A model generated the notes under the pieces. That model had not been told where the DNA came from and did no database searches. It worked only from the letters and a program-made list of their open reading frames with translations. Source: Desulfitibacter sp. BRH_c19 (lineage in GTDB: Bacteria > Bacillota > DSM-16504 > Desulfitibacterales > Desulfitibacteraceae). From it: DNA of 64,000 nt. Location: the NCBI GenBank assembly GCA_001515945.1, contig LOER01000023.1:62001-126000 (forward strand). The letters are read 5' to 3'. This document shows, in pieces, positions 37,170 to 52,907 of the stretch (positions within the stretch are counted from its first letter, which is position 1; every line of letters begins with the position of its first letter). The translations under genes and the position numbers were made by a program.

Positions 37170-37853
37170 TTATTTTACTTCCTCCATTATTTTCTGCGTA
37201 GCGCTTGTACCAATTCGAGTTGCTCCTGCTTTATATAGCTCTAATACTTGTTCTAATGTGCGAATTCCACCTGAAGCCTTAATCGCTACCTGGGGCCCGC
37301 AACTTTCTCTCATTAATTTAATGTGTTCAAGTGTTGCACCTGTTCCTGCAAAACCTGTAGATGTCTTAACAAAATCCACTTTTAACTCCTCACATAACTT
37401 ACAACACTTAGCTATCTCTTCATTAGTAAGATAAGCATTTTCAAAAATAATTTTAACTAGGACGTTTCTTTCGTGGCATGCCTCAGTAACTGTTCTAACA
37501 TCTTCCTTTACATAATCCCAATCCCCTGAACGTATTTTGCCAATAGGCATTACAATGTCAAGCTCCACTGCACCATCTTCCATTGCCTTTATGGCTTCAT
37601 ATAGTTTTGCTGCTGTAGTACTATTCCCATGGGGAAAACCTATCACAGCACTAATAAGAACTTCTGAATTCTCTAAGATTTTTTTGCAAGTAGCTACATC
37701 ATAAGGCCTTACGCATACAGTTGCCACACTATATTCGTTAGCAATTTTACATCCTTCAATAACTTCTTCATCTGTCATTTCAGGTTTCAGCATGGGATAA
37801 TCTATCATTTTAGCTATTTCTTTAGCATTAAGAACTTTGTTTTGTTGTTTCAT
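37170..37853 (-). CDS. deoC: Deoxyribose-phosphate aldolase
   Basis: 227 aa, class I aldolase cleaving 2-deoxyribose-5-phosphate to acetaldehyde and glyceraldehyde-3-phosphate. The Schiff-base lysine is in DFVKTSTGFAGTGAT near 150 and the helper lysine in VAIKASGGIRT near 185. DIVMPIG near 100 is also typical. Ribosome-binding site GGGAGG before ATG. First gene of the minus-strand nucleoside operon; divergent from the SOS-type promoter at 37979. It consumes the sugar phosphate left after nucleoside phosphorolysis. Confidence 0.96.
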   Translation of the reverse strand: MKQQNKVLNAKEIAKMIDYPMLKPEMTDEEVIEGCKIANEYSVATVCVRPYDVATCKKILENSEVLISAVIGFPHGNSTTAAKLYEAIKAMEDGAVELDIVMPIGKIRSGDWDYVKEDVRTVTEACHERNVLVKIIFENAYLTNEEIAKCCKLCEELKVDFVKTSTGFAGTGATLEHIKLMRESCGPQVAIKASGGIRTLEQVLELYKAGATRIGTSATQKIMEEVK

Positions 37854-37978: not shown

Positions 37979-38007
37979 TTGACACTTAATTTATCTGTTA
38001 CTATAAT
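37979..38007 (+). promoter_or_regulatory. Consensus promoter of the imuB-like gene
   Basis: Perfect TTGACA (37979-37984), 17-base spacer, perfect TATAAT (38002-38007). The expected start point, near 38014, falls at the edge of the LexA-type box, so binding there would block initiation. Confidence 0.9.
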
Positions 38008-38014
38008 TGTTATA

Positions 38015-38028
38015 CGAACATTAGTTTG
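38015..38028 (+). promoter_or_regulatory. LexA (DinR) box at the imuB-like promoter
   Basis: CGAACATTAGTTTG fits the Gram-positive SOS box CGAAC-N4-GTTYG with no mismatch. It begins seven bases after the -10 box. A second box occurs only at the dnaE2 promoter (49813-49826) as far as I can see in this window. Confidence 0.85.
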
Positions 38029-38044
38029 GTTAGGTGGTTTTTCT

Positions 38045-39040
38045 ATGTCCCTTGTTATTTTTGTGAAATTAAAAAATGGTAGTTTTAATAGAAGTTTTAT
38101 TGATTCATGTTACTCTTTATCTCCCCATATAATTAAAAAACAGGATAACGAATTTTTTATTGAAATGGGAAAAATTAATCTGGAAAAAGTTATTGTCCAG
38201 ATTAATAATCTGAATTTGCTTCCACATAAAATCGTAACCTTTGGTTTAGCTTATAATAGATTAGCGGCATATATTGCTGCCCTAACTTCATTTAGACATC
38301 CCCAGCTTATTAGAAAAAAAACAAACTGGGGATATTTATCATGGGTAGAAAAAAATAATTCATCTAGTTTTATTCAGACAACAGCTTTAAAAGCGCTACA
38401 TTTTCTTTTATCTTCTAAAACTTTGAAAACATTGATTAACCTTGGAATAAACAGTCTTAGTGAAACAAATAGAATTTCCATGGAGACCCTTAAAGATTTC
38501 CTTGGAGAAGATGCAAAGATTATATATTTATTGAATAATGGGATCTTCCCCTATGCTACTTCTCCATTACCTTTAGAATTTGTAATATATAAATCAATAC
38601 CCCCAGACCATAACTTTAGTGACCTTCTGGAATATATCAAAATAGCATGCCAAGAGCTATCCTTGGAATTAGCAAATAAAAATTTAGGTTGCCGCACCAT
38701 TTTCTTAAATGCAAATATGTATACAGGCGTTACTTTAAGTGAAAAAGAAATCTACTCTCAACCTAAAAACCAATGGGGTATTTTTGAAAATACATGTTTG
38801 AGTTTTTTTAAATCTGTATTTAAAGGCCATTATGAAGACCAACTTTTAGATTTTTCTCTTCAAGTTAAGGAATATGAAGCCATTGATGGTAAGCAACTAG
38901 ACATTTACGATTTACAACCCGCTAGAGGTCAATCTCTTGACCATGTAAAAAGTTTACCTTCTATTTCTATCTGCCCTCATGTAAGCAGAAGAGAACAGAT
39001 TCTTTCCTTATATGATCCATATAGACAAGGGAGAAATTAA
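38045..39040 (+). CDS. imuB: ImuB-like, catalytically degenerate Y-family polymerase homologue
   Basis: 331 aa from the ATG seven bases after AGGTGG; a longer frame from 37874 crosses the promoter and is rejected. Segments follow the Y-family order: VTFGLAYNRLAAYIAAL near 70 (fingers/palm GxAxNKxLAK-like), a helix-hairpin region LINLGINSLSETNRISMETLKDFLG near 135, then a little-finger-like LLEYIKIACQELSLELANKN near 200 and a terminal SRREQILSLYDPYRQ. The N-terminal palm with the catalytic DxD-type aspartates of active Pol IV is missing, as in ImuB, which recruits DnaE2 to the clamp. LexA-regulated by sequence. Confidence 0.68.
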   Translation: MSLVIFVKLKNGSFNRSFIDSCYSLSPHIIKKQDNEFFIEMGKINLEKVIVQINNLNLLPHKIVTFGLAYNRLAAYIAALTSFRHPQLIRKKTNWGYLSWVEKNNSSSFIQTTALKALHFLLSSKTLKTLINLGINSLSETNRISMETLKDFLGEDAKIIYLLNNGIFPYATSPLPLEFVIYKSIPPDHNFSDLLEYIKIACQELSLELANKNLGCRTIFLNANMYTGVTLSEKEIYSQPKNQWGIFENTCLSFFKSVFKGHYEDQLLDFSLQVKEYEAIDGKQLDIYDLQPARGQSLDHVKSLPSISICPHVSRREQILSLYDPYRQGRN

Positions 39041-39041
39041 A

Positions 39042-39287
39042 ATGACAAAAATTTGGGAGCTTAATATTCTGGTTGAAACCAAAAATGGACTGCCCATTTC
39101 ATTTATTTGGAGACAAGAAAAATATGAAACACTTCAGATTATAGAGCAGTGGAAGGATATAGGTTCATGGTGGCTCGGTGAAGGGGAAAAAATCTTTTAC
39201 CGCCTTGAAACTCTAGATAAAGGGTTATGGGAAATCTTTTACGATATAAAGGAAAAGAAATGGTTTTTGTATAAAAGTTACGACTAA
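39042..39287 (+). CDS. Small DUF6504-like protein paired with the ImuB-like gene
   Basis: 81 aa. Pattern IxWRQEKYETLQIIEQWKD, GSWWLGEGEKIFYRLET, GLWEIFYDIKEKKWFLYKSYD resembles the DUF6504 domain that accompanies Y-family/ImuB genes and lies C-terminal in some of them. Aromatic-rich and compact, with no metal or catalytic motif. Its ATG comes one base after the upstream stop, with GGGAG inside the end of that gene, so the two are translated together. Probably an accessory subunit of translesion synthesis; function otherwise unknown. Confidence 0.68.
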   Translation: MTKIWELNILVETKNGLPISFIWRQEKYETLQIIEQWKDIGSWWLGEGEKIFYRLETLDKGLWEIFYDIKEKKWFLYKSYD

Positions 39288-39303: not shown

Positions 39304-39369
39304 GGATAAAGGGCAGTACCTGTGGACAGGAATGTCCATTACTATATAAGCTTACCTGCCCCTTTATCC
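39304..39369. other. Long imperfect inverted repeat between convergent genes
   Basis: GGATAAAGGGCAG (39304-39316) pairs with CTGCCCCTTTATCC (39356-39369) with one bulged base; inside is a short GGACA/TGTCC hairpin. It overlaps the nagB stop. There is no clear T-run, so it is not a standard terminator, though it may act as a transcript boundary. Confidence 0.5.
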
Positions 39370-40067
39370 AAAAGTACTGTCACCCTGGGATGGACCTGGA
39401 GCATAGATGCAGGTATTTGGGTGCTGATAACACCAGTTAATGTTTCTTTAATTATCTCTGCTTTGCTCTCACCAGCAGCCAGCAAAATGATCTCCTTTGC
39501 CTTCATAATAGTACCCATTCCCATGGTAATGGCTTGCTTGGGTACATCATTAATATCTACAAAAAATCTGCTGTTAGCCTTTATTGTATCCTCACTTAGC
39601 TTGACTAGATGGGTATTAGCAGACAAGGAAGCACCTGGCTCATTAAAGCCAATATGACCATTCTCACCAATCCCTAACACCTGTAGGTCAATTCCTCCTA
39701 CCTCCTCTATCCTGGCCTCATAATCCAGGCAAACTTTAAGGGCATCCACAGGATTTCCATCAGGAATATTAGTGTTCTCCATTCTTATATCAACTCTATT
39801 CCAGAGGTTTTCCCGCATATAGCTATAATAGCTATGGGGAATTTCTCTAGCAATGGGATAGTACTCATCTAGATTAAAGGTGGTAACCTGACTAAAGCTT
39901 ACCTGTTTTAATTGGTAAAGCTTAATTAGCTGCTTATACATTCCTAACGGTGTAGAACCTGTGGCTAAACCTAGCACTAGGTTGGACTTTTGCTCTATCC
40001 TGCAAGCTACATATTTAGCTGCTTCTGCACTTAATTTTGAATAGTCATCCAAGATGCGTATTTTCAT
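39342..40067 (-). CDS. nagB: Glucosamine-6-phosphate deaminase
   Basis: 241 aa, same length as Bacillus NagB. Converts glucosamine-6-phosphate to fructose-6-phosphate and ammonia. Seen: GLATGSTPLGMYKQL near 35, FNLDEYYPI near 65, VLGIGENGHIGFNEPGASL near 130 and AITMGMGTIMKAKEI near 185. Start ATG one base after the ATPase stop; a longer frame from 40115 lies inside that gene. Last gene of the sugar operon and its link to glycolysis, which identifies the imported compound as an amino sugar. Confidence 0.96.
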   Translation of the reverse strand: MKIRILDDYSKLSAEAAKYVACRIEQKSNLVLGLATGSTPLGMYKQLIKLYQLKQVSFSQVTTFNLDEYYPIAREIPHSYYSYMRENLWNRVDIRMENTNIPDGNPVDALKVCLDYEARIEEVGGIDLQVLGIGENGHIGFNEPGASLSANTHLVKLSEDTIKANSRFFVDINDVPKQAITMGMGTIMKAKEIILLAAGESKAEIIKETLTGVISTQIPASMLQVHPRVTVLLDKGAGKLI

Positions 40068-40068
40068 G

Positions 40069-41166
40069 CTACTTAACCTGACTTCCATTGAAAATTGTCT
40101 GCTCACTTTTGCCATTAAATAAGTGCAGCTTGTCAGTAATAAAATTAATTGTTACCTTGTCTCCAGTTTTTATGGACAGATTGGCCTCTACCCTAGCTAT
40201 GATAGTCTTACCAGCCAAATTTACATACACATAGGTTTCTGCTCCCATAGGTTCTATTACTTCTACTAACCCAAAAGCCCGCGCCCCTTCAGTATAAAGC
40301 CCAAGTCTGATATCCTCAGGTCTTACACCTAAAACCAAATCACTATTGTTCAGAGCCTCGTGCCAGTTATTAAGTACCGGTGCCTGCCACTTTTCACCTT
40401 CCACAATTAACTGCTCTCCTTCTTGCTTTAACATAACTGGTAGGAAGTTCATAGCAGGAGAACCAATAAACCCGGCAACAAACATGTTAGCTGGTGTATT
40501 GTACAAATGTAAGGGCGTATCCACTTGTTGAATATAACCGTCCTTCATGACCACAATTCTATCTCCCATTGTCATAGCTTCAGTTTGGTCATGAGTAACA
40601 TAGACTATAGTCGCACCTAATCGTTTATGGAGCTTGCTAATTTCTGTTCGCATATGCACCCTCAGCTTGGCATCCAAATTAGATAGTGGTTCATCCATCA
40701 AAAATACTTTAGGATGGCGAACAATAGCTCTTCCTAGGGCTACCCTCTGCCTCTGTCCCCCAGAGAGGGCTTTTGGCTTGCGGTGCAAATAGTCCTCTAA
40801 GTTAAGTATTTTGGCTGCTTCTTGAACATTTTTCTCTATTTCAGGCTTTGACATCTTTCTAAGCTTTAACGCAAAGGCTAAATTTTCGTAGACACTCATA
40901 TGAGGATAAAGTGCATAGTTTTGAAAGACCATGGCAATATCCCGATCCTTGGGTAAAATATCATTAACCAGTTTATTGTCAATATACAATTCCCCAGCTG
41001 TAATCTCCTCTAAACCAGCAATCATCCTTAATGTGGTGGACTTTCCGCAGCCAGATGGACCAACTAGCACCAAAAATTCTTGATCATTTATAAGCAAATT
41101 GAAATCGTGGACAACAGTTACATCTCCATAATTTTTCTTGATGTTTTTCAATTCAACCTGTGCCAT
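40069..41166 (-). CDS. Sugar ABC transporter ATPase (MsmK/UgpC type)
   Basis: 365 aa. Walker A GPSGCGKSTTLR near 38, Q-loop FQNYALYPHMSVYENL, signature LSGGQRQRVALGRA near 135, Walker B VFLMDEPLSNLDAKL near 155 and VTHDQTEAM; a C-terminal TOBE-type regulatory region (from 240) with LGVRPEDIRLG. Powers uptake through the MalF/MalG-type permeases of this operon. ATG follows GGAGGG by seven bases. CUT1-type importers often share one MsmK; here a dedicated copy is present. Confidence 0.94.
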   Translation of the reverse strand: MAQVELKNIKKNYGDVTVVHDFNLLINDQEFLVLVGPSGCGKSTTLRMIAGLEEITAGELYIDNKLVNDILPKDRDIAMVFQNYALYPHMSVYENLAFALKLRKMSKPEIEKNVQEAAKILNLEDYLHRKPKALSGGQRQRVALGRAIVRHPKVFLMDEPLSNLDAKLRVHMRTEISKLHKRLGATIVYVTHDQTEAMTMGDRIVVMKDGYIQQVDTPLHLYNTPANMFVAGFIGSPAMNFLPVMLKQEGEQLIVEGEKWQAPVLNNWHEALNNSDLVLGVRPEDIRLGLYTEGARAFGLVEVIEPMGAETYVYVNLAGKTIIARVEANLSIKTGDKVTINFITDKLHLFNGKSEQTIFNGSQVK

Positions 41167-41275
41167 TTTTCTTCCCTCCAGTTCCTTCATTAACGCTTAC
41201 TTCTAACCATGTTTCCTTCACTTCTCCTGGTCCAATAAGACTAGTCTCCCCTTTGAGGTCTGTCTCTTGTAACAT
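41153..41275 (-). CDS. Possible 40-aa open frame between the UroD-like and ATPase genes
   Basis: ATG 41273-41275 with a weak AAGG eight bases upstream; it ends 14 bases inside the ATPase gene. The product (begins MLQETDLKGETSLIGPGEV, ends Gly/Lys-rich) has alternating hydrophobic residues suggestive of beta strands but matches nothing I know. It could be a gene remnant, a coupling leader peptide, or chance. It lies within the 120-nt spacer between two well-supported genes of the operon. Confidence 0.3.
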   Translation of the reverse strand: MLQETDLKGETSLIGPGEVKETWLEVSVNEGTGGKKNGTG

Positions 41276-41285
41276 GGGTACTACC

Positions 41286-42284
41286 TTATACCGACTTAAC
41301 TGCTCTTAATAATGCCTGAAAATTGTTATGAGATGTATCTTTAGGCACCTCACAACCAGGGCTTAATATATATCCCAACCCACCTATTTCGATGCACTTT
41401 TTGGCCTCGGTTAGGATTTTTTCTTCAGTTCCCTGTAGCAACACCCCACTAGGATTTATGTTTCCTTTAATACAAGTATCCTGTAGCACGTCCCTGGCTT
41501 TATTCAAGTCTACCTTGGAATCAATGTTAACTAAATCTGCTCCTAGCACTTTAATTTGTTCTAGCAAATGAGAGGCATCACCACAGATATGATATTTGAC
41601 TTTAGCACCACTTTTTTTAATTGCTGCGATCACCCTTTTATTGTAAGGCAGGACTAAGGTTTCATAAGATTTAGGTGAAATCAGGGAAGCAACTGCGTCT
41701 CCAATCCCTATTATATGAGCTCCCGCTTTAGCCTGCGCAACACCAAAGTCAATGGCTAACCGTGTTGTAAATTCAAGCAATTCCCTCACAAAGTCCTCAT
41801 CTTCTACGGTATCCATCATCAACTCTGTCAAGCCTCTCAAAATAGCTGCGCTTTGAAATGGGCTCTCTACCCAGCCTAAAACTGGTATTTCTCCAGCAGT
41901 CTTTTTTCGTAACTCTTCCACTCCTGCTATTTTATCAGCCAAGCGATAAGACCCGCTAATTACTGGTACTTGCATATTTAAGAGGTCTTTTTTTTCAGCA
42001 ATTGCTTTTATCTTTTCAATTGGCAAGTCATCCTCTTGAAATTCAATTAGTGCACCACAAGCCTCGGCTTCACGATAAGCATCTGTATCTGCAGTAACAA
42101 TATCATAGTCAAAATGCTCCACACAAGCCAATTGTGCTTCAGCCATGCTGCGATAATCTGTACAGTACTTCCCATAAGGCACTTGGGCAAATTTAGAAGC
42201 AAATGCCATCACAAATGGACATACAGGAACTCGATCAACTGGTTGAAAGGTTATTGCTGCCATTGTTCTTTCATATGAATTCAT
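41286..42284 (-). CDS. Uroporphyrinogen decarboxylase-family protein with methyltransferase-type zinc site (MtaA-like)
   Basis: 332 aa TIM barrel. N terminus MNSYERTMAAITFQPVDRVPVCP is typical. It keeps the H-x-C...C zinc ligands of MtaA/MtbA-type methylcobamide:CoM methyltransferases: KYHICGDASHL near 225 and ILSPGCEVP near 305. True HemE residues for tetrapyrrole binding are not evident, so haem synthesis is unlikely. In methanogens and demethylating anaerobes such proteins transfer methyl groups via a zinc thiolate; no corrinoid protein is encoded here. Its operon position suggests a step in sugar catabolism. Alternative: a non-methyl function shared by sugar-operon UroD-like proteins. Confidence 0.82.
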   Translation of the reverse strand: MNSYERTMAAITFQPVDRVPVCPFVMAFASKFAQVPYGKYCTDYRSMAEAQLACVEHFDYDIVTADTDAYREAEACGALIEFQEDDLPIEKIKAIAEKKDLLNMQVPVISGSYRLADKIAGVEELRKKTAGEIPVLGWVESPFQSAAILRGLTELMMDTVEDEDFVRELLEFTTRLAIDFGVAQAKAGAHIIGIGDAVASLISPKSYETLVLPYNKRVIAAIKKSGAKVKYHICGDASHLLEQIKVLGADLVNIDSKVDLNKARDVLQDTCIKGNINPSGVLLQGTEEKILTEAKKCIEIGGLGYILSPGCEVPKDTSHNNFQALLRAVKSV

Positions 42285-42314
42285 GGTTATTCAACCCCCT
42301 ATGCTTTGGATTCC

Positions 42315-43247
42315 TTATTGGCAATCATGCTTTTTTAAGAAAATTTCCAAGATTTTCAAATCAGGTGCCGAGGCTCCTCCCCCATAATTAGATGCGGCAA
42401 TGGCTCCACACGCACTTCCCAGCATCAGGCACCGAGCTGTGGAAAGATTATTCAGATACCCATAGAGAAATCCGGCATCAAAGGCATCCCCTGCCCCTAC
42501 GGCATCTAACGCAGCCACCTGAAAAGCAGCTTGTTTCCAGCTTCCATTATGGTCCTTGGCAATAGCTCCTTTGCTGCCTCTAGTAATCACTACTATCGGC
42601 ACCAAAGCACTTAATATATTTAAAGCTTTATCCACATTTTCTTCACTAGTGAGCTTTAGTGCCTCTGTTTCATTAGGGAAAAATAGATTTATGTTAGTTA
42701 GAACCTGATTCATTTTTTCCCAATATTTTTCATAATCGTCAAAGCCTATATCTAACGATGTCGACATGCCTCGTCGTTTTAACTCTACAAAAACCTTAAC
42801 ATAGCCATCAATTAATTTTCGCCAGTTAAAACCAGCTACATGGATATGTCCAGCATTTTCAACACTTTTTTCTAATAGTTTCTCTGGATTGTATAGTTTG
42901 TTGCTTCCCATATAACTTATAAAGGCTCGATCCTTACCTGATGTCAGGCAGATACTAATTCCCGTATCTGCTTTATTTACAACTTCCATTAGTGAGGTAT
43001 CTACTCCCAGCTTTTCCAGGTATGATAAGATATACTGTCCAAAATGATCGTTACTCACTACCCCGTATAGGGCTACTTTTAAGCCTAGCTTGCATAAACT
43101 GATAGCGGTGTTAGCAGCACTACCACCCACAGTCACAGCCATCTCATCGATAAATAATTCTTCACCCATTTTCGGTAGTTCATCAAAGCTACCTGGTATT
43201 ATATCTAAATTGACATCTCCTGCTACAATTATATCTAGTTTCTTCAC
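42315..43247 (-). CDS. PfkB-family carbohydrate kinase
   Basis: 310 aa ribokinase fold. VGGSAANTAISLCKLGLKVALYGVVSNDHFG near 35-65 and the catalytic ALDAVGAGDAFDAGFLYGYL near 240 are clear; VVITRGSKGAIAKD marks the ATP site. Phosphorylates a sugar, nucleoside or amino sugar. Next to PIG-L deacetylase and NagB the simplest guess is glucosamine or a derivative to its 6-phosphate. GTG start 43247 chosen because GGGGTGG lies nine bases upstream; the GTG four codons earlier has no ribosome-binding site. Confidence 0.9.
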   Translation of the reverse strand: MKKLDIIVAGDVNLDIIPGSFDELPKMGEELFIDEMAVTVGGSAANTAISLCKLGLKVALYGVVSNDHFGQYILSYLEKLGVDTSLMEVVNKADTGISICLTSGKDRAFISYMGSNKLYNPEKLLEKSVENAGHIHVAGFNWRKLIDGYVKVFVELKRRGMSTSLDIGFDDYEKYWEKMNQVLTNINLFFPNETEALKLTSEENVDKALNILSALVPIVVITRGSKGAIAKDHNGSWKQAAFQVAALDAVGAGDAFDAGFLYGYLNNLSTARCLMLGSACGAIAASNYGGGASAPDLKILEIFLKKHDCQ

Positions 43248-43279
43248 TATTGCATCCACCCCATTACTTGCATTGATTG

Positions 43280-44005
43280 TTAAGGAAGAAGTCGTTCAGG
43301 GGTAACCCTTAATGAACTTATATACCTGATAAAGCCTTCCGCATATTCTGTTCCACATTGGAAACCACGAAAGCGGCCACATATTTTAATAAACTCCATA
43401 ATATCCATATTGTCATGATCCCTGAGCCAGTCAATTTGGCTCACATGTTCAGCCAACATTTTTTCCTTTAAAAAAAATGTTTCAGTCACATCCACATATT
43501 CCGTAGGAGCAAAATTTACACCAGCATAATTATCCATAAAGTAAATTTGAGGCACTTTGTCAATAGCTGGGTACTCCGTGATAATGTGGGGAACTGATAC
43601 CATAAAACTGGCATCAACTGCTAGTTTAGAAACTGCCACATGGTCGGCATGGTAATCAGCTGGATGGTGAGTGATAATGAGATCAGGATTAGCCCTTCGA
43701 ATCAAGTCCACCATTCTCCATCTGCTCGCCAAATTCTCCTCTATCTCTCCGTCTTTAAATCCCATATTATAAACAGGGGAGTTTAAATGTCGAGCAGCCT
43801 TTTTGCTCTCCTCAATCCTTATCTTGCCAAGCTCATCAGGAGCAATATGGCGGTGTCCCTTATCACCTTCACAGGCTACTCCCATAACTACTTCATGACC
43901 TAGGTGATGGTACCTTGCTAAAGTACCAGCACAAGATATTTCCAAGTCATCGGGATGTGCCCCTATGCCTAATACTGTTAACCTTCGTTTACTTTTTTGT
44001 ATCAC
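43280..44005 (-). CDS. PIG-L family deacetylase (LmbE-like)
   Basis: 241 aa. Zinc hydrolase that removes N-acetyl groups, typically from GlcNAc-containing compounds. Catalytic motif GIGAHPDDLEISCAGTL near 15 (AHPDD, where D is the base and H/D bind zinc) and ITHHPADYHADH near 110 (third zinc His). GTG start eight bases after GGAGG. In this operon it would convert an imported N-acetyl amino sugar to the free amine before phosphorylation. The second Asp of AHPDDE is followed by Leu-Glu, a normal variation. Confidence 0.92.
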   Translation of the reverse strand: MIQKSKRRLTVLGIGAHPDDLEISCAGTLARYHHLGHEVVMGVACEGDKGHRHIAPDELGKIRIEESKKAARHLNSPVYNMGFKDGEIEENLASRWRMVDLIRRANPDLIITHHPADYHADHVAVSKLAVDASFMVSVPHIITEYPAIDKVPQIYFMDNYAGVNFAPTEYVDVTETFFLKEKMLAEHVSQIDWLRDHDNMDIMEFIKICGRFRGFQCGTEYAEGFIRYISSLRVTPERLLP

Positions 44006-44017
44006 TTCAACTACCTC

Positions 44018-44848
44018 CTATCCTTTTACTGCACCAGCAGTAAGTCCCTTAATAAATTGTTTTGACATGATTAGATAGAAAATTATGGCTGGTATGACCG
44101 CTACTGTTAATGCAGCAAATACAGTAGGCCAGTCTGTTTGAAATTGGCCGAAAAAGATGGCTGTTCCAAGAGGTACGGTCTTTAATGCATCACTTTTGAT
44201 AAATATCAACGGAAAATAGAAATCATTCCAAATTGGTATAAAGTGATAAATAGCTGATGTGGCTATGGCGGGACGCAGTAGTGGCAAGTAAATTCTTATT
44301 AATATTTGCCAGTCATTACACCCATCAATTTGTGCTGCCTCCAGCATTTCTTTAGGAATTTGTTTCACAAAGGCAGTTATGATAAAAACTGAAAAGGGGA
44401 TCCCCATAGCTGTATAGATCAAAATTAATGCTAATAAGTTATCAAATAGATTTAGACTCTGAAAGATCTGAAACAAATTCAAAACTCCCAGGCGGATAGG
44501 TATCATCATGCCGGCCAGAAAAAAGAAATAAATCAGCTTATTTCCGCGAAACTCATATCTTCCTAATGCATATGAAGCCAGAGTTGAAACCACTATTATT
44601 AGCAATAAAGAAACAACCGTTACCATAATACTGTTGCGGTAATAAATTAAAAAATTAGTTTGTAGCAATACTGTCTCATAACCGCTTAAATTAATGCTCT
44701 GTGGTAAGCCAAAAGGTTTTGTCATCACTTCTAAATTTGTCTTAAAGGAGGTAATGACCATAATATACAAAGGATAAATGACTACAAAGGAATAAGCCAA
44801 TAAAATGGCATGAGTCATCAGATTAGTAATTCGTACTTTAGGATTCAC
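44018..44848 (-). CDS. Sugar ABC transporter permease (MalG type)
   Basis: 276 aa with six membrane segments. The EAA loop is visible as EMLEAAQIDGCNDWQILIRIYLPLLRPA near 185-215. Forms the translocation pore with the MalF-type subunit. Start is a GTG shortly after a G7 ribosome-binding stretch (around 44855-44861); the longer frame would lie within the upstream gene. Adjacent to PIG-L by 12 nt. Confidence 0.93.
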   Translation of the reverse strand: MNPKVRITNLMTHAILLAYSFVVIYPLYIMVITSFKTNLEVMTKPFGLPQSINLSGYETVLLQTNFLIYYRNSIMVTVVSLLLIIVVSTLASYALGRYEFRGNKLIYFFFLAGMMIPIRLGVLNLFQIFQSLNLFDNLLALILIYTAMGIPFSVFIITAFVKQIPKEMLEAAQIDGCNDWQILIRIYLPLLRPAIATSAIYHFIPIWNDFYFPLIFIKSDALKTVPLGTAIFFGQFQTDWPTVFAALTVAVIPAIIFYLIMSKQFIKGLTAGAVKG

Positions 44849-44861
44849 TATCTTTCCCCCC

Positions 44862-45767
44862 CTAACTCTTGTTAAATTTGGAATCAATGTATGACCAACT
44901 TGCCACACCAAAGCAGATAATCACAAACATAAAGACTGCTATTGCTGCTCCCATCCCCATGCTTGGCTGTGCACTCGTAGCGCTAAAGGCAGTACGATAA
45001 AATAAGGTTCCTAAAACATCCGTAGCATAATTGGGTCCGGCCATGGTACCAGCCATGGCATAAATAATTTCAAATGAACTAAAGTTTCCAACTACTGTTA
45101 ATATCATCACTAAGCCAATTATTGGCATTAGTCCGGGCAGGGTTATATTTCTAAATACGTGCCATTCATTACACCCATCTATTCTAGCCGCTTCAAAGAG
45201 CTCTTCGGGAATTGCCCTAATCCCGGCTACAAACATCATAATGGGCAAGCCAATAAATTGCCAGGAATTAACATATGCAATTACTGGTAACGCTAAGTTA
45301 GGGTCCCCTAACCAAGGCTTTGCTAAATTCACCAGACCTATTAATTCTAAACCTTTGTTCAGTACTCCCCAAGTAGGATTTAGAATAAGCGTCCATATGA
45401 AACCTACTATTAATACGGATAAAGTGACAGGCATAAAATAAATTGTACGATAAAAATCTGTCCCTCTTAACTTTTTGGTTAATAATACCGCTAAAAAGAG
45501 AGCCACCACATTTTGAAATAAGGTGGTATATGCAAATAATTTAAAATTGTTCGTCAGGGCATTAAAAAACCTAGCATTAAAAGGCTCTACAAAAAGCAGC
45601 CTTTTAAAATTTTCAAGTCCAACAAAACTCATTGGACCATAGCCATTCCACTCATATAGACTCATACCTAAGGACATTATTAATGGATAGGCCATAAATA
45701 GCGTATATAGAATTACTGCTGGCAATAAGTATAGGATTATTCCATATCTAGTTCTTTTTTTTGCCAT
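44862..45767 (-). CDS. Sugar ABC transporter permease (MalF type)
   Basis: 301 aa with six predicted helices (first LYLLPAVILYTLFMAYPLIMSL near 10-32). The EAA motif reads EELFEAARIDGCNEWHVFRNITLPGLMPI near 200-230. CUT1-family subunit working with the neighbouring MalG-type permease, lipoprotein receptor and MsmK-type ATPase. Gap to the upstream UroD-like gene is 17 nt, so it belongs to the same transcript. Confidence 0.93.
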   Translation of the reverse strand: MAKKRTRYGIILYLLPAVILYTLFMAYPLIMSLGMSLYEWNGYGPMSFVGLENFKRLLFVEPFNARFFNALTNNFKLFAYTTLFQNVVALFLAVLLTKKLRGTDFYRTIYFMPVTLSVLIVGFIWTLILNPTWGVLNKGLELIGLVNLAKPWLGDPNLALPVIAYVNSWQFIGLPIMMFVAGIRAIPEELFEAARIDGCNEWHVFRNITLPGLMPIIGLVMILTVVGNFSSFEIIYAMAGTMAGPNYATDVLGTLFYRTAFSATSAQPSMGMGAAIAVFMFVIICFGVASWSYIDSKFNKS

Positions 45768-45784
45768 GTCATCACACCTATATC

Positions 45785-46930
45785 TTAATATTTTCCGTAT
45801 GATAGTGCTGTATCAATCATCGCAACGTAATTATTCTTAGTTCTTTCTTTAAGTTCTACATCAAGTGGGGCAGCCGTGGGCATCAAAACAAATCTTCCCC
45901 CTGGTGCCCCCTGGTCAATTGTCCGCTTTGTAATTTCTATTATTTCTTTCTCATTACGCAATTCCAAGTCATGGAGTTGGATATTTCCAAAAATGGTAAC
46001 CCTATCACCAATAATTCTTTTCGCCTCCGCCAATTCTATATCACCACTAGGAGGGGCCTCAACAGGATCTATAGCATCTGCACCCATGTCTGCAATATAT
46101 TCCAAAACCTGGCCTACCCGACCATGGGCATGCACTCGGCAATAACAATCGTATTTATGGATTAAATCAATAAGCTTCTTATCATAATTATATACATAAT
46201 CCTTAAACAATCTGTTTGGTAAATAAGGAGGTGTTGCCAACTCGGGGCCATAAATCCTTACCAATGGTCCTGCACCATTTTCTAGAAGATACTGCAGGTA
46301 ATTATAAATTCTCTCAAAATATATTTCTAATAACTGATGCATTCTTTTCTCTTCTGTCATTGCAAACATTAAAAATTCATCATACTTAAATAAGTCAAAA
46401 ACGTAAACAATAGGGTCCCCAATATCAGTTGTAATAATTCCTTTATCACCTATTTCAATCTGAGCCTGTATTAGAGAACTAGTGTCGGGCAGAAATGGTT
46501 CATATGGAATTGAAAGTACTTTTTCCAAATCACTAAGATCTTTCACAAAATGTTCAATAACCCAAACAGTATTAACTAGATCATTGAAACGTTCCACCAT
46601 TTTAAGGTCACCCTTTGGGGTCTTTATGATAATTTCGGTGTAAGTATCTTCCCCTTCTCGCCAGCTACGAAGCTCTTCTGTTATTTTCTTGGTACCTGTC
46701 AAAAAACGGCCCAATCCCTTATCCGAATCACCAATACGTTGACCTGTATAGGGATACCAAAAATTTATTCCATCAGTATTTTTCCTGATATAGTCCATCA
46801 ACTCAGCATACTTGGGCTGCTTGTTATACCAATCATTGGATTTCCATCCCTGTAGCTCAAGAGTATTGATAGGAACTCTATCTGGCATATCTCCTTTTAA
46901 GACAGCTAGTAATCTTTCTTTGGAATTCAC
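45785..46930 (-). CDS. Second uroporphyrinogen decarboxylase-family protein, without the cysteine zinc ligands
   Basis: 381 aa from a GTG start after GGAGGGG; the ATG frame start 21 codons upstream overlaps the attenuator. N terminus VNSKERLLAVLKGDMPDRVPINTLEL is UroD-like. At the positions where MtaA-type enzymes have HxC and a later Cys this protein has CRVHAHGRVGQVLEYIADMGADAIDPVEAPP near 285 and FVLMPTAAPLDVE near 350, so only histidines remain. It is too divergent for HemE. It lies between the binding-protein gene and the permeases, which suggests a catalytic role on the transported substrate. Function unknown. Confidence 0.75.
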   Translation of the reverse strand: MNSKERLLAVLKGDMPDRVPINTLELQGWKSNDWYNKQPKYAELMDYIRKNTDGINFWYPYTGQRIGDSDKGLGRFLTGTKKITEELRSWREGEDTYTEIIIKTPKGDLKMVERFNDLVNTVWVIEHFVKDLSDLEKVLSIPYEPFLPDTSSLIQAQIEIGDKGIITTDIGDPIVYVFDLFKYDEFLMFAMTEEKRMHQLLEIYFERIYNYLQYLLENGAGPLVRIYGPELATPPYLPNRLFKDYVYNYDKKLIDLIHKYDCYCRVHAHGRVGQVLEYIADMGADAIDPVEAPPSGDIELAEAKRIIGDRVTIFGNIQLHDLELRNEKEIIEITKRTIDQGAPGGRFVLMPTAAPLDVELKERTKNNYVAMIDTALSYGKY

Positions 46931-46962
46931 AAATTCCCCTCCATTCACGATGCAAGATGTAA

Positions 46963-47002
46963 AATATAATCTATGGGATGGTTCATTGACCATCCCATAG
47001 AT
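46963..47002 (-). terminator. Attenuator after the sugar-binding lipoprotein gene
   Basis: Perfect 14-bp stem (46969-46982 and 46989-47002, core CTATGGGATGGT) with a six-base loop. On the minus strand it is followed by TATATTTTA, a weak T-run, so readthrough into the rest of the operon is likely. It begins 18 nt after the stop at 47020. Confidence 0.82.
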
Positions 47003-47019
47003 ATTTTAGATTTTTGATA

Positions 47020-48321
47020 TTATTCCTGAAATGGTATGTACCAACTTGCCAATCCATTTTGGAGATGTTCCGCAGCTTCTTGTGGAGTCATATCTCCATT
47101 AAACATGCTGGTAATACTCTCCATATTAAGCGTTCCGGCAGATGGTTCTTCTCTGTTGAAATTTTCTAATCCATAACATACAGCAAAGTTTTCACCATTT
47201 GCTCCTGAAGCTTCAATCCATTCCCTTGCTAATTCGTCTTCAATCTTATCAAGAGGTACATTTACAGTTGGATAAAGTCCTGCCATCAAGTTACCTGTAA
47301 GAATCTGTGCCTTTTCACTTAGTAACCAGTTAGCATAAATTAAAGCTTCCTCAACATGTTCTGAGTTCTTATTAATTCCTACCCCTGCTCCACCGTTGAA
47401 AGCTAGCCACTGCTTATCCCCTTTATTGACTGTTGGGGACATAAATACACCAAACTCCATATCTGGATTTTGATCTTGGAAATAGCCGATTTCCCAAGAT
47501 CCAGCTGGGTAAATAGCAGCTTGCTCAGATAAAAATAACTGTTGTGATTCTACATAACCAATTGCCTGGTAAGCATTGGGCATGTAATCCTTCCATCTGT
47601 CAAGGCTTTCTAGATAACCTACAAAATCAGAATCAGTAAATTTCTTTTCACCTTTTAAAATAGCATTACGCCAGTTTTCCCCATCAAGGAAATTGACATA
47701 GTTGGGATTAGCTATTACTTCATCCATCACCCAGCCATCTTTAGTACCAAGGGCAAGGGGAGTAACGCCTTCAGCTTTAAGTTTATCTAATACTGTAAAA
47801 AATTCATCCCAAGTTTCTGGCTCTGATAAATTATGTTCATCGAAGATACCCTTGTTGTAGATAAATCCATAGGATACATACATATATGGAGCAGAATTAA
47901 GTTTTCCATCTTCAGACTTATAAACCTGTCTTTGGGTTTCAGGAACACTTGCCAGGTTAGGTAAGTTCTCTTCATTCATTTCTACCAAATATCCGGATTC
48001 AAATAAACTTACACCCCTGTCAAAAGGTCTAACATACATTAAATCAGCAGCAGTATTAGTATTTAAGCTCATGCTTAATACTGAGTTGTACTCTGTGTTT
48101 TTAATAGGGTCATATTTTACCCTAATGTCTGGGTATTCTTTATTGAATTCTGCATTCAGTATTTTAAAAGCTTCAATTTCTTCAGTTCTCCAGCTAGTTA
48201 ATGTAATTTCTACTATACCATCTTCTGGTTCTCCCTCTTCATCAGGCTCAGATGTACTACATCCGGCTAATGAACCTATAGCTAAGCCAAGTACTAACAA
48301 TAAAACTAAAAACTTTTTCAT
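47020..48321 (-). CDS. Sugar-binding lipoprotein (family 1 solute-binding protein)
   Basis: 433 aa. Lipobox SLAGC near residue 20, then an acidic linker and an MalE-like fold: EITLTSWRTEEIEAFKILNAEFNKEYPDIRVKYDP near 45-75, YMYVSYGFIYNKGIFDEHNL near 145 and AAIYPAGSWEIGYFQ near 265. First gene of the amino-sugar operon. Ribosome-binding site is three overlapping GGAGGAGGAG. Two 22-bp direct repeats overlap its promoter, and an attenuator follows it, so it should be made in excess of the permeases. Confidence 0.94.
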   Translation of the reverse strand: MKKFLVLLLVLGLAIGSLAGCSTSEPDEEGEPEDGIVEITLTSWRTEEIEAFKILNAEFNKEYPDIRVKYDPIKNTEYNSVLSMSLNTNTAADLMYVRPFDRGVSLFESGYLVEMNEENLPNLASVPETQRQVYKSEDGKLNSAPYMYVSYGFIYNKGIFDEHNLSEPETWDEFFTVLDKLKAEGVTPLALGTKDGWVMDEVIANPNYVNFLDGENWRNAILKGEKKFTDSDFVGYLESLDRWKDYMPNAYQAIGYVESQQLFLSEQAAIYPAGSWEIGYFQDQNPDMEFGVFMSPTVNKGDKQWLAFNGGAGVGINKNSEHVEEALIYANWLLSEKAQILTGNLMAGLYPTVNVPLDKIEDELAREWIEASGANGENFAVCYGLENFNREEPSAGTLNMESITSMFNGDMTPQEAAEHLQNGLASWYIPFQE

Positions 48322-48339
48322 CTTTTCTCCTCCTCCATA

Positions 48340-48383
48340 ATCTTAAAAAGTAACTATCAACATCTTAAAGAGTAACTATTAAC
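48340..48383 (-). promoter_or_regulatory. Tandem 22-bp direct repeats, candidate operator of the sugar operon
   Basis: ATCTTAAAAAGTAACTATCAAC (48340-48361) and ATCTTAAAGAGTAACTATTAAC (48362-48383) abut with two differences. On the minus strand the half-motif AGTTACT resembles the AGTTAACTT motif near the ROK gene. The repeats cover the -10 region and start point of the promoter below. Confidence 0.65.
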
Positions 48384-48404
48384 ACAGAAAACCTTATGTC
48401 TCAA
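48376..48404 (-). promoter_or_regulatory. Probable promoter of the amino-sugar operon
   Basis: On the minus strand TTGAGA (48399-48404), 17-base spacer, TAATAG (48376-48381). The -10 is imperfect, as is common for regulated promoters, and lies inside the upstream of the two 22-bp repeats. Confidence 0.5.
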
Positions 48405-48428
48405 TCCCCCTTTCATAAATGCCAAAAT

Positions 48429-49631
48429 TCAATCCAATAAATGCTTAAACACATAATCTAGTCCAATCGCAAAGGCCCCATAAATACCCGCCTTACTGTT
48501 AAGCACAGAGTATATTATTGCTGGTTTAGTGGGCATTATCTTTCCAGCCTGCTTATTAACTAGATCAAGCAAGTGATTTTCTAATACTCTAATTTCACCA
48601 CCAATGATAATTAGATCTAGGTCTAATACTGCCTGAAGATTGGCGGTTGCTACAGCCAAGTATCTGGCAATTGCTGTAACTGCCTTTTCAGCAAGTGCAT
48701 CTTGATTGTCTAATGCTTGTTTAATAATTTTCAACGTTATTTTATCCGGATCATCTACCCATTGATTTATAATAGAAACTTCCCCACCAGCCACTAACTT
48801 TTTCACTTGTTTCAATAGTGCCGGGACGGATGTTCTTGCCTCTAGTGGACCATACCCATCGAACTCTTCATCAAGCATGTCTACATCCGGTACCATGTAG
48901 CCAATTTCCCCTGCAGCAAGATTACTGCCTTCGAACAGCTTTCCCTTTAGAATGATTCCAGCACCCACTCCCATATCCACGCTAATGTAGGCTAGGTTAC
49001 GGCTTTTTTTCCCTACCCCATAATGGGCCTCTCCTAAAGCCGCCAAGTTAATGTCGTTTTTTAATAACACAGGCACCTGAAAGTGCTCACTTAATATTTG
49101 CTTAACTGGCAGATGATCCCAACCCCTGAACTGGGGACTTAAGCGTACTGTATTAGCTTCAGGATCAATTACCCCTGGAGTACCGACAGTAATAGCCTTT
49201 AATTTATTTTTAGTCTCAGGATAACTAGCAAAAATCTCCTGAATAGTATATATAATTTTTTCGATGATTTTTTCTCCGTCTTTATCCTCAGGCAAGCTAA
49301 ACTGCTCCATGGCAATTATATTGCCTAGTAGATCTCCTAAAGCAGTCCTGCAATTTTCACTACTTAAGTCAATGCCTATTACGTATCCGTATTCCTTATT
49401 AAATTCTAAAAGGATAGGTTTTCTCCCGCCTCCAGAGTCTCCTTCGCCAACTTCCCTCAGTAAGTCCATCTTCAATAGCTGATCTATATTTGAAGATACA
49501 CTAGGAGCACTTAAAATTAATTCCTTGGCCAACTCAGCCCTGGAAATAGTCCCTTTTCTTTTTATTGTTTCTATAATCAGCTTTAGATTTGTCTTGCGAA
49601 CTAAGTGCTGATTTCCGCCAATTCGCGCCAT
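48429..49631 (-). CDS. ROK-family transcriptional repressor (NagC/XylR type)
   Basis: 400 aa. N-terminal winged helix (about 10-70): LIIETIKRKGTISRAELAKELILSAPSVSSNIDQLLKMDLL. The ROK sugar-binding domain follows: VIGIDLSSENCRTALGDLLGN near 90, LKNDINLAALGEAHYGVGK near 200, YISVDMGVGAGIILKGKLFEGSNLAAGEIGYM near 230. The usual zinc-site CxCGxxGCxE stretch is replaced by DEEFDGYGPLEARTSVP, so it is a non-zinc or variant ROK. It probably senses the operon's sugar. ATG after AGGAGG; the longer frame is rejected. It lies directly upstream of, and in line with, the operon. Confidence 0.9.
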   Translation of the reverse strand: MARIGGNQHLVRKTNLKLIIETIKRKGTISRAELAKELILSAPSVSSNIDQLLKMDLLREVGEGDSGGGRKPILLEFNKEYGYVIGIDLSSENCRTALGDLLGNIIAMEQFSLPEDKDGEKIIEKIIYTIQEIFASYPETKNKLKAITVGTPGVIDPEANTVRLSPQFRGWDHLPVKQILSEHFQVPVLLKNDINLAALGEAHYGVGKKSRNLAYISVDMGVGAGIILKGKLFEGSNLAAGEIGYMVPDVDMLDEEFDGYGPLEARTSVPALLKQVKKLVAGGEVSIINQWVDDPDKITLKIIKQALDNQDALAEKAVTAIARYLAVATANLQAVLDLDLIIIGGEIRVLENHLLDLVNKQAGKIMPTKPAIIYSVLNSKAGIYGAFAIGLDYVFKHLLD

Positions 49632-49647
49632 TATTTGCTCCTCCTGA

Positions 49648-49725
49648 GTTAACTTAGTTAACTTTAACTTGTAAACGTTTTGAGAAAAACAAAGCATTAA
49701 ATGCTACTTTGTTAACTTAACTAAG
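49648..49725. promoter_or_regulatory. Two inverted copies of a CTTAGTTAA motif, candidate ROK autoregulatory operators
   Basis: GTTAACTTAGTTAAC (49648-49662) and GTTAACTTAACTAAG (49711-49725) are inverted relatives sharing CTTAGTTAA, about 50 bp apart and flanking the likely promoter of the ROK gene. TTAGTT/AACTAA half-sites are typical of XylR-type ROK repressors. Repression with looping would fit. Confidence 0.55.
49669..49683 (+). promoter_or_regulatory. Candidate cre site (CcpA) upstream of the ROK gene
   Basis: TTGTAAACGTTTTGA matches the catabolite-responsive consensus WTGNAANCGNWNNCA with one mismatch. It lies 38-52 bases upstream of the ROK start codon, between the two CTTAGTTAA motifs, so glucose repression of the regulator is plausible. 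Confidence 0.5.
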
Positions 49726-49803: not shown

Positions 49804-49832
49804 TTGCCTATTCAAACATATGTTCGTATAAT
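49804..49832 (+). promoter_or_regulatory. Promoter of dnaE2
   Basis: TTGCCT (49804-49809), 17-base spacer, perfect TATAAT (49827-49832). The LexA-type box fills the spacer. The start codon is 22 bases beyond the -10, preceded by TTAGGAGG. Confidence 0.85.
49813..49826 (+). promoter_or_regulatory. LexA (DinR) box at the dnaE2 promoter
   Basis: CAAACATATGTTCG fits CRAAC-N4-GTTYG (the reverse strand reads CGAACATATGTTTG). It sits exactly between the -35 and -10 hexamers, the classic repressor position. Confidence 0.85.
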
Positions 49833-49853: not shown

Positions 49854-52800
49854 ATGATAAGCTTTTCTCATTTACATTGTCATTCATATTTCTCTTTTCT
49901 AGATGGTTGTAATTCACCCGAAGAGCTGGTGGAAATGGCGGCTAATTTAAATATGTCATCCATAGCTCTTACGGACCATAATAATCTCTGTGGAGCAGTA
50001 AGGTTTCATCAGGCTGCTAAAAAAGCTAATATTAAACCTATCATAGGTAGTGAGATAACTCTGGAAAACAACTACCACCTAACCCTTTTGGCAACAAACA
50101 CCAAGGGTTACAATAATCTCTGCAAAATTCTAACTGAAAGCTATAAAAAAGGGGGGCGTTATCAGCCTACAACCTCCTTTTCGACTCTGGAAAAATATCA
50201 TGAAAATCTTATTGCCCTTTCCGGGTGTTACAGAGGAGAAATACCTGCCCTATTGCTAAATAGGCAATTTCATAAAGCACTAGAAGTAGCTAAAAGATAT
50301 TTAAATATTTTTAATCAGGATAACTTTTACTTGGAAATACAAAACCTACTTCACCCAGGTGATAAGTTGTTACAAAATCATATTCACCAATTAGCACAAC
50401 AGCTTAATCTTAAAATAGTAGCTACAAACAATACCCATTTCTTAAAAAAAGAAAACTTTGCTTTACATGACATCCTTACCTGTATCAGAACAAACACCAC
50501 CTTAAACCAAATACATAAAGAAAGAAGATTAAACGCCGAATGCTATTTTAAAAGCCAAATGGAAATGGAATATCTTTTTAAAAACAATCCCGTAGCCCTT
50601 AAAAACATCCATGAATTAGAGGAAAGATGTCAGGACGCCCTACCCACAGCTAATAGATTATTTCCTTCATTTCCCCTACCACCTGGCACAGACGCTGCAG
50701 ATTTTCTTAAAACAATTGTTTATCAAGGAGCAGCAGCAAGATACAAAAAATTAACTCAATCCATAAGAACCCGTTTAGAGGGTGAACTAGATGTGATAAT
50801 CAAGCTAGGGTTTCAGGACTATTTCTTGATGGTATGGGATCTTGCACGGTATGCTTCAAGGAAGAAAATAAGGTATGCAGCTAGGGGTTCAGTAGCTGTC
50901 TCTGTTGTCGCATTTTCCTTAAGAATATCTGAAGTGGATCCCATTTCTCGGGGACTACTTTTTGAAAGGTTTATGAGCTTAGAAAGGGCTGAAAAACCTG
51001 ATATTGATATAGATTTTGACTCCCGTAAGCGTGATATTTTAATAGATTATCTTGTCAAAAAATACGGTGAGGATAAGGTTGCAAGTGTCTGCACCTATAA
51101 TACTTTTAAGGCTCGTGGAGCAGTAAGAGATCTAGGAAAGGTTTTGGAAATACCTGAAGGGGAACTGGACAAAATAGCAAAGCTTCTTCCCCATGTCTAT
51201 GCTGATCAGATTCCTGATGTGTTAGTTAGTCTTCCAGAGTTAAGAAAAAGCAACATGGATTGGAGCAACTATAGCCAGCTCTTTGATTTCTGTAAACAGG
51301 CAGCTGGTCTTCCAAGATTCCTTGGAACTCACCTTGGAGGGGTAGTTGTAAGCTCGGTCCCATTAGAACAGGTAACACCGCTCCAGCCTTCTGCCAAAGG
51401 TTTGACTATAACCCAATTTGACAAGGATGATATTGAAGCATTCGGACTTGTGAAGCTTGATTTGCTATCCTTAAGAACACTCGCTGCTGTAGAAGACTGC
51501 AACGAAAGCATCAAGCTTGCTGAAAGTAGCTTTTCTTATGAAGCTATACCTTATGATGATAAAGATACCTTTAATATGCTACAGCAAGGAGAAACCATAG
51601 GTGTTTTTCAGTTAGAAAGTCCTGCCCAAAGAGGATTGCAAAATAGACTGAAATCATCTCATATGGAAGATATTGTGGCCAGCCTAGCACTTATACGTCC
51701 AGGTCCTATTAAAGGAAACATGGTAGAACCATTTATTGCTAGACGCCATGGTACAGAAGCTGTTACTTATCTTCATCCCAAATTAGAACCTATCTTGAAA
51801 AAAACCTATGGGGTTGTTCTTTTCCAAGAACAGGTTATTGAAATAGCCACTGAGGTGGCAGGCTTTTCTCCTGGTGAGGCAGATCAGGTGCGCAGGATAA
51901 TGACCAAGGCACGATCTTATAAGGCAATGGAGAAAATTGGAGAACACTTTGTTACTAAAGCTCAAAGTAATGGAATTTCCCAGGATCTAGCCCAAGTTAT
52001 CTTCTCATACATAGCTTCCTATGCAAGCTATGGTTTTTGTGAAGCCCATGCAGCCTCCTTTGCCACAACGGCATATAAAACGGCATATCTGATAAAGCAT
52101 TATCCAGCCCATTTTTTTGCAGCACTTTTAAGTAATCAGCCAATGGGGTTTTATAGTGCTCAAACCTTATGTGTAGAAGCAAGAAGGAGAGATGTTGAAA
52201 TACTTCCTCCCCATATTAATTTAAGTAAGGATAAATTTGTTGTAGAAGGCAGAGAAATAAGAGTTTCTTTGGGGCAAGTAAAGGGGATGCAGGATAAAAT
52301 CCTTCCGAAAATATTGGAAGTTCGTTCTCAAATGGATTTCACTTCTCTTGAGGATTTTTATAAACGAACGGGAGTTCCAAAGGATTTATGTGAAAATCTA
52401 ATTTTTTCAGGGGCTTTTGATTCCATAGGGCAAAACCGCCGCGACCTCCTTTGGAAGCTACATAAGATACTAAAAGGAAAGGAAATTCATTTCTCTTCTC
52501 CTGTACCTGATTTTCCTACGGATGAGCGGGAAATACTCCAGTTCGAAGTTCTAGGCATCCACGTAAATGAACATCCATTGGGGAAAATAAGGAAGATCTT
52601 GAAATTGAAGGGTTTCTATACTGCAGCTGAACTAAAGAAGTTCCCAGACAAAACAAAGGTGAAATGTTCGGGCATACCCATTAGGCCTCAAAGACCACCT
52701 GTAAAAAGTGGCAAAACAATGGTATTTTTCTCCTTAGAGGATGAAACAGGTCTCACCGATGTAACTGTCTTTGAAGATATTTATAAAAAGTTCGGACAGT

Positions 52801-52907
52801 TTATTTACACAGCTTCTCCGAAGCCGTTGATTGTATCAGGGTATATTTCAAAAAGGGGTGAGGGCTTTAGTCTGATAGCTCAGGAAATAGCCGTCTTAGC
52901 AATCTAA
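49854..52907 (+). CDS. dnaE2: Error-prone DNA polymerase III alpha subunit, DnaE2 type
   Basis: 1017 aa, shorter than replicative DnaE. N-terminal PHP domain: FSHLHCHSYFSFLDGCNSPEELV, then SIALTDHNNLCGAVRFHQAAK. Catalytic palm aspartates in PDIDIDFD near 385 and KLDLLSLRTL near 530. DnaE2 hallmarks: VVLFQEQVIEIATEVAGF near 655, SYGFCEAHAASFA near 725 and LLSNQPMGFYSAQTL near 755. An OB domain (about 940-1010) closes the protein; the C-terminal tau-binding region of replicative enzymes is absent. Such polymerases make SOS-induced mutations with ImuB. A LexA box lies in its promoter. Its likely partners are 10.6 kb upstream on the same strand. Confidence 0.93.
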   Translation: MISFSHLHCHSYFSFLDGCNSPEELVEMAANLNMSSIALTDHNNLCGAVRFHQAAKKANIKPIIGSEITLENNYHLTLLATNTKGYNNLCKILTESYKKGGRYQPTTSFSTLEKYHENLIALSGCYRGEIPALLLNRQFHKALEVAKRYLNIFNQDNFYLEIQNLLHPGDKLLQNHIHQLAQQLNLKIVATNNTHFLKKENFALHDILTCIRTNTTLNQIHKERRLNAECYFKSQMEMEYLFKNNPVALKNIHELEERCQDALPTANRLFPSFPLPPGTDAADFLKTIVYQGAAARYKKLTQSIRTRLEGELDVIIKLGFQDYFLMVWDLARYASRKKIRYAARGSVAVSVVAFSLRISEVDPISRGLLFERFMSLERAEKPDIDIDFDSRKRDILIDYLVKKYGEDKVASVCTYNTFKARGAVRDLGKVLEIPEGELDKIAKLLPHVYADQIPDVLVSLPELRKSNMDWSNYSQLFDFCKQAAGLPRFLGTHLGGVVVSSVPLEQVTPLQPSAKGLTITQFDKDDIEAFGLVKLDLLSLRTLAAVEDCNESIKLAESSFSYEAIPYDDKDTFNMLQQGETIGVFQLESPAQRGLQNRLKSSHMEDIVASLALIRPGPIKGNMVEPFIARRHGTEAVTYLHPKLEPILKKTYGVVLFQEQVIEIATEVAGFSPGEADQVRRIMTKARSYKAMEKIGEHFVTKAQSNGISQDLAQVIFSYIASYASYGFCEAHAASFATTAYKTAYLIKHYPAHFFAALLSNQPMGFYSAQTLCVEARRRDVEILPPHINLSKDKFVVEGREIRVSLGQVKGMQDKILPKILEVRSQMDFTSLEDFYKRTGVPKDLCENLIFSGAFDSIGQNRRDLLWKLHKILKGKEIHFSSPVPDFPTDEREILQFEVLGIHVNEHPLGKIRKILKLKGFYTAAELKKFPDKTKVKCSGIPIRPQRPPVKSGKTMVFFSLEDETGLTDVTVFEDIYKKFGQFIYTASPKPLIVSGYISKRGEGFSLIAQEIAVLAI

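Follow-up and report, generated by a model that had tools for sequence, protein, structure and literature searches.

In mycobacteria, ImuB is the clamp hub needed for mutagenesis by DnaE2 (PMC10421592, PMC11791113), and the main text of PMC6511836 describes a split cassette in these bacteria as well. An inactive Y-family protein together with a standalone ImuB-C and DnaE2 was described in 2019 as the Kyrpidia tusciae type (PMC6511836), and the same arrangement was named DnaE2X-iPolY-[ImuB-C]-RecA in 2026 (PMC12926913). The main text of the latter also describes drastic structural deletions in canonical ImuB, which keep the little finger, the thumb and ImuB-C, and modelled complexes in which the thumb and ImuB-C contact DnaE2. 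ImuB-C is also found with active Y-family polymerases in Clostridia (main text of PMC6511836). These systems raise the question of which parts of the dead polymerase matter in ImuB-type mutasomes.

The locus considered here is located in a stretch of 64,000 nucleotides of Desulfitibacter sp. BRH_c19 (hereafter the window). It is highly likely that positions 38045-39287 encode the scaffold and the beta-barrel subunit of an SOS-induced translesion mutasome, in which the DnaE2-like protein encoded at 49854-52907 is the catalytic subunit. The earlier note held that this was not a described mutasome arrangement, which the publications of 2019 and 2026 contradict. Because relatives have the order iPolY, DUF6504, DnaE2, because LexA boxes are present and because DUF6504 corresponds to ImuB-C, the window system most probably belongs to the published DnaE2X-iPolY-[ImuB-C]-RecA type of putative mutasome. 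The first unit has the following features.

37979-38007, forward strand: sigma-70 promoter TTGACA-N17-TATAAT, 12/12 matches (consensus scan).
38015-38028, forward strand: LexA (SOS) box CGAACATTAGTTTG, lying shortly after the -10 and 16 bases ahead of the start codon of iPolY (pattern scan).
38032-38037, forward strand: Shine-Dalgarno-like AGGTGG (sequence).
38045-39040, forward strand: iPolY, a 331-aa predicted inactive Y-family (ImuB-like) scaffold without fingers (alignments, fold, relatives).
38072-38089, forward strand: fingers-loss junction, residues 10-15, linking palm strand 1 to the following helix (alignments).
38351-38536, forward strand: thumb region, residues 103-164 (AlphaFold2 model; weak Pol IV matches).
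38579-38881, forward strand: little finger, residues 179-279 (AlphaFold2 model; weak IMS_C match).
38894-38908, forward strand: putative beta-clamp-binding motif QLDIY, residues 284-288 (relatives have QLNLF/QLSLF at the aligned position).
38984-39025, forward strand: conserved tail SRREQILSLYDPYR, residues 314-327 (alignments).
39042-39287, forward strand: standalone ImuB-C (DUF6504), 81 aa, six-stranded beta model (PF20114, model).

The two open reading frames reported earlier are both present: 331 codons at 38045-39040 closed by a TAA stop, then the 81-aa frame, whose ATG begins one base after that stop. The codon usage of the genome itself fits frame 1 in both. The in-frame extension of iPolY to 37874 scores -0.30 for coding and contains the promoter and the LexA box, so that an upstream start restoring a catalytic palm was rejected and the true start is very probably the ATG at 38045.

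Family models recognise the 331-aa protein only marginally (IMS_C at E = 0.18 over residues 190-285, Pol IV models at E = 0.02-0.05 over residues 99-222). A PDB sequence search gave nothing useful, and a search for related loci with the single protein as query gave no matches. We modelled the protein with AlphaFold2, with the window protein and the related loci fetched by search as the only input. The model (mean pLDDT 77.9, pTM 0.58) has palm strands, thumb helices and a little finger, and the PDB matches listed for it by Foldseek are Y-family polymerases (best E 7e-14). VIA aligned residues 2-280 with the whole Dbh and Dpo4 chains at Z of about 16, matching 259-263 residues to chains of 333-344 and leaving roughly 80 target residues unmatched. 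The Y-family nature of the protein is clear from this fold and from the relatives, the sequence models being marginal. A chance resemblance is ruled out by the same evidence, and neither a non-Y-family fold nor an upstream start restoring the palm was found. The ImuB-like identity proposed earlier is thereby borne out, as are the thumb (hairpin) and little-finger segments, both visible in the model, and the terminal sequence, which is the tail SRREQILSLYDPYR.

What is missing differs from what had been proposed. The earlier note described a protein that keeps the fingers and lacks the palm. Aligned with DinB, the protein has no counterpart of the segment at about residues 12 to 75, i.e. the fingers, which span about 65 residues both in DinB and in full-length relatives; alignment with the latter rules out that they are retained. 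Palm strand 1 remains at the N-terminus, followed by everything from the next palm helix onward, so that the palm sheet is mostly kept (alignments, AlphaFold2 model). The claim that the palm is lacking was therefore wrong in detail. The claim that there is no catalytic aspartate region was right in effect: Asp8 of DinB is replaced by Lys8 and Asp103 by Asn35, while Glu104 is kept as Glu36. With 2/3 of the catalytic carboxylates gone and the fingers absent, iPolY lacks the features of an active Y-family polymerase (Pol IV), and these alignments support its being a catalytically dead scaffold. Towards the C-terminus, QLDIY is an atypical clamp motif, and the tail residues R, R, E, L, D and P are invariant among 11 fingerless homologues. 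The spacing from the clamp motif to RRE is 26 residues, vs 36-44 in most relatives. The RecA-NT region has no recognisable helix end and glycine, and is at low pLDDT in the model. The fingerless relatives L111 and L113, by comparison, keep RecA-NT.

The partner gene had been described as DUF6504-like, and PF20114 (DUF6504) matches the 81-aa protein above cut-off (E = 9e-10). An Ensifer plasmid ImuB is also matched above cut-off by this model, at residues 428-504, which by sequence match identifies DUF6504 with the domain called ImuB-C in the literature, located at the C-terminus of canonical ImuB. The proposed coupling of a dead ImuB-like scaffold to a separate DUF6504 subunit is thus supported. 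The predicted structure is all-beta, with six strands. A fold search with this model retrieved no PDB match at E 0.001, in agreement with the main text of PMC12926913, where ImuB-C is said to lack close relatives in the PDB. The name DUF6504 was not mentioned in the literature searched.

The second unit, with the genes that part it from the first, is laid out as follows; neither an SOS promoter nor the dnaE2-like gene appeared in the earlier note.

39342-49697, reverse strand: sugar-utilisation cluster on the opposite strand, outside the mutasome and parting its two units (gene reading; DUF6504 and dnaE2 adjoin in relatives).
49804-49832, forward strand: promoter of the dnaE2-like gene, TTGCCT-N17-TATAAT (promoter scan).
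49813-49826, reverse strand: LexA box CGAACATATGTTTG within the spacer of that promoter (pattern scan).
49854-52907, forward strand: DnaE2-like error-prone C-family polymerase, 1017 aa (homology, tree, motifs).

The DnaE2-like protein has the active-site motifs PDIDIDF and VKLDLL and reaches the cut-off of neither the DnaE1-type nor the DnaE2-type NCBIfam models. In a tree that contained no published DnaE2X reference sequence, it groups with all linked DnaE proteins in a clade of 100% support, separate from the main DnaE of the genome and from plasmid DnaE2. No QxxLF clamp motif was found in it, nor in nearly all linked DnaE proteins. At the matching position the main DnaE proteins have QLSLF-like sequences (QLSFF in the window's genome). 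It is the iPolY proteins that carry the clamp motif instead. The dnaE2-like gene is on the same strand as the DUF6504 gene and belongs to a separate operon: about 10.6 kb, with opposite-strand genes, lie between the two. Hence, its pairing with iPolY-DUF6504 is suggested by homology, the common strand and the LexA boxes, rather than by a shared operon.

Of the intervening genes, named by eye, some encode NagB, a UgpC-like ATPase, two UroD/MtaA-like proteins and a PfkB kinase, and others a PIG-L-like deacetylase, a binding-protein transporter and a ROK regulator. Two UroD-like proteins beside a sugar transporter make an unusual mix.

Of the 44 iPolY-like genes scanned, most have a LexA-type box with no more than one mismatch close to their start; such a box occurs in a few per cent to about 20% of random stretches taken from these loci. 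The lexA and recA genes of the window's genome carry one-mismatch boxes. Perfect boxes were not in excess genome-wide over a reversed-pattern control; because of this we do not use their enrichment as evidence, and the positions of the boxes alone carry the argument. The genome encodes one LexA, one RecA, one DinB and a main DnaE. ImuA gave no match above cut-off in this genome, the sole weak match being RecA itself. A genome search with PF00154 retrieved RecA and a second weak match on contig C35, whose ORF looks RadA-like by eye. Elsewhere in the same genome, two CGAAC....GGTTCG-type palindromes lie 27 bp apart (L118:1501-1555, i.e. G000 C8:2649-2703), just past the 3' end of an integrase-like ORF.

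Homologues of iPolY were found in other genomes of the phylum, where the order is [iPolY][DUF6504][DnaE, about 1000-1100 aa], mostly behind a LexA box; in most loci read, the gene after DUF6504 is DnaE2-like. In the window protein and in six others, what is missing is exactly the fingers segment of DinB and of the full-length relatives. Forms with and without fingers stand together in two 100/100 clades (L073/L074 against L063/L055, and L091 against L078). A single origin of the fingerless form was rejected: on the iPolY tree it takes 7 changes, of which starred branches force at least 3. If losses are irreversible, the iPolY tree gives 10, or 4-6 with weak branches collapsed, and the DnaE tree 6-7. 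Loss of the fingers thus seems to recur among iPolYs, with an estimated 4-10 losses depending on the tree and on collapsing, a rough number given the length and weak support of the deep branches in the iPolY tree. The most reduced protein comes from another locus.

L085:5202-5765, forward strand: iPolY remnant, 187 aa, with only the little finger, a QLSFF clamp motif, a RecA-NT-like stretch and the SRREIMLAFYDPWR tail.

Its thumb and palm are gone, and DUF6504 and a 1050-aa DnaE follow downstream. We tentatively picture a parallel whittling of the scaffold, possible rather than probable, from a full length of about 400-430 aa to fingerless forms of about 320-370 aa by several independent in-frame deletions, and on to the 187 aa of L085. 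In the window protein even the RecA-binding helix would seemingly have been lost, and if this is true, the window encodes a DnaE2 mutasome that works with neither RecA nor ImuA bound to its scaffold.

Two further loci deserve mention. Genome G185 has a full-length iPolY (L055:2359-3678, forward strand) about 2.7 kb from DUF6504 and dnaE2, a second broken cassette. On a plasmid of Thermomicrobium roseum (L132:1703-7168), genes for recombinase A, a 416-aa IMS_C protein annotated as hypothetical and an error-prone DNA polymerase lie in a row, and this Y-family protein also looks N-terminally short.

We propose the following working for the window system. DNA damage would activate RecA, LexA would leave the two promoters that carry its boxes, and all three proteins would be made, both units being presumably damage-induced. 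The dead iPolY would bind the sliding clamp via QLDIY, and its thumb, little finger and RRE...DP tail would serve as docking surfaces, the tail being a candidate site for the standalone ImuB-C. ImuB-C would form the bridge to the PHP domain of DnaE2. Lacking a clamp motif itself, DnaE2 would reach the blocked primer end through iPolY and synthesise across the damage. Since handling of nucleotide and template is no longer a task of iPolY, the fingers would be dispensable, and were presumably deleted in frame. We infer recruitment of DnaE2, clamp binding, complex formation and mutagenic output from homology to mycobacterial and modelled systems.

One point against a mutasome is that the RecA-NT motif of the published type does not appear recognisable in the window protein. 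The main rival is relaxed constraint on the window iPolY, given its fast evolution (end branch of 2.48 in the iPolY tree). The pair might even be a decaying remnant, its cassette broken by the sugar cluster and its iPolY shedding fingers and RecA-NT on the way to a pseudogene. This would fit the very long branch, the low identity to relatives (20-24%), the shortened RecA-NT region and the situation in the congener G002. The latter is colinear with the window, at 65-91% identity, through deoC (37170-37853) and then breaks; neither unit is present at the colinear site, and a DUF6504 search of its genome gave no match. The mutasome is therefore located in a variable stretch of the genus. Colinearity resumes near 63617, which makes a variable stretch of roughly 26 kb (37854-63617). 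Yet decay is unlikely: both frames are intact at 331 and 81 codons with codon usage like that of their own genome, the promoter with its LexA box is perfect, the Shine-Dalgarno sites are good, the clamp motif and the invariant tail residues are kept, and the identical fingers deletion occurs in intact linked cassettes elsewhere.

Alternatively, the pair could have no need of the distant dnaE2 and instead regulate the cell's own DinB (Pol IV) or replicative DnaE at the level of the clamp or of RecA. The transcription units are separate, the genome has one DinB and a main DnaE, and in Clostridia ImuB-C also accompanies active Y-family polymerases (main text of PMC6511836). We regard this as very improbable, since the relatives' loci mostly place a DnaE2-like gene after DUF6504, the window DnaE belongs to the linked-DnaE clade and LexA boxes stand on both window units.

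Under the mutasome reading, nature has run the same deletion experiment several times: the fingers are lost, whereas palm strand 1, the little finger, the clamp motif and the RRE...DP tail stay, and usually the thumb. This repeated loss with clamp motif and tail kept argues for a pure tether-and-dock role of the scaffold, whose reduction goes in step with a DnaE2 lacking the clamp motif. It names a minimal scaffold for structural or test work, and indicates that a mutasome of this kind can be divided between two SOS units. The main texts of PMC6511836 and PMC12926913 do not mention fingers loss in iPolY, which their supplements may already draw. Judged by these main texts, the fingers loss in several lineages of the split system looks new, as do the 187-aa iPolY of L085, the shortened RecA-NT region of the window protein and the dnaE2 split off under its own SOS promoter in this genome. 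The two-unit split alone is not new in kind, because the mycobacterial cassette is also split.

The window system shares with the DnaE2X-iPolY-[ImuB-C]-RecA type an inactive Y-family protein, an adjoining standalone ImuB-C gene, a linked DnaE2-like polymerase, the lack of ImuA and SOS-type promoters. It differs in that its iPolY is fingerless and has no recognisable RecA-NT motif, and in that its dnaE2 stands apart as an SOS unit of its own, at a distance of about 10.6 kb. With mycobacterial ImuA-ImuB-DnaE2 it has in common a dead Y-family hub with a clamp motif, an ImuB-C domain, a DnaE2 without clamp motif, LexA control and a split cassette, but its ImuB-C is a separate protein, and ImuA and the fingers are absent. 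It also departs from canonical ImuB (ImuB1/ImuB2), as ImuB-C is unfused (39042-39287) and no ImuA was found above cut-off. The drastically reduced ImuB1/ImuB2, referred to in PMC12926913 as Supplementary Fig. S22, resemble it in deleting structural elements while keeping little finger and thumb; these are fused and accompanied by ImuA, whereas the window has a split iPolY. The 187-aa iPolY of L085 is reduced further than the most reduced ImuB described in that main text. Finally, iPolY has the palm sheet, thumb and little-finger fold of DinB/Pol IV, Dpo4 and Dbh, and differs from them in having no fingers and in the replacement of 2/3 of the catalytic carboxylates.
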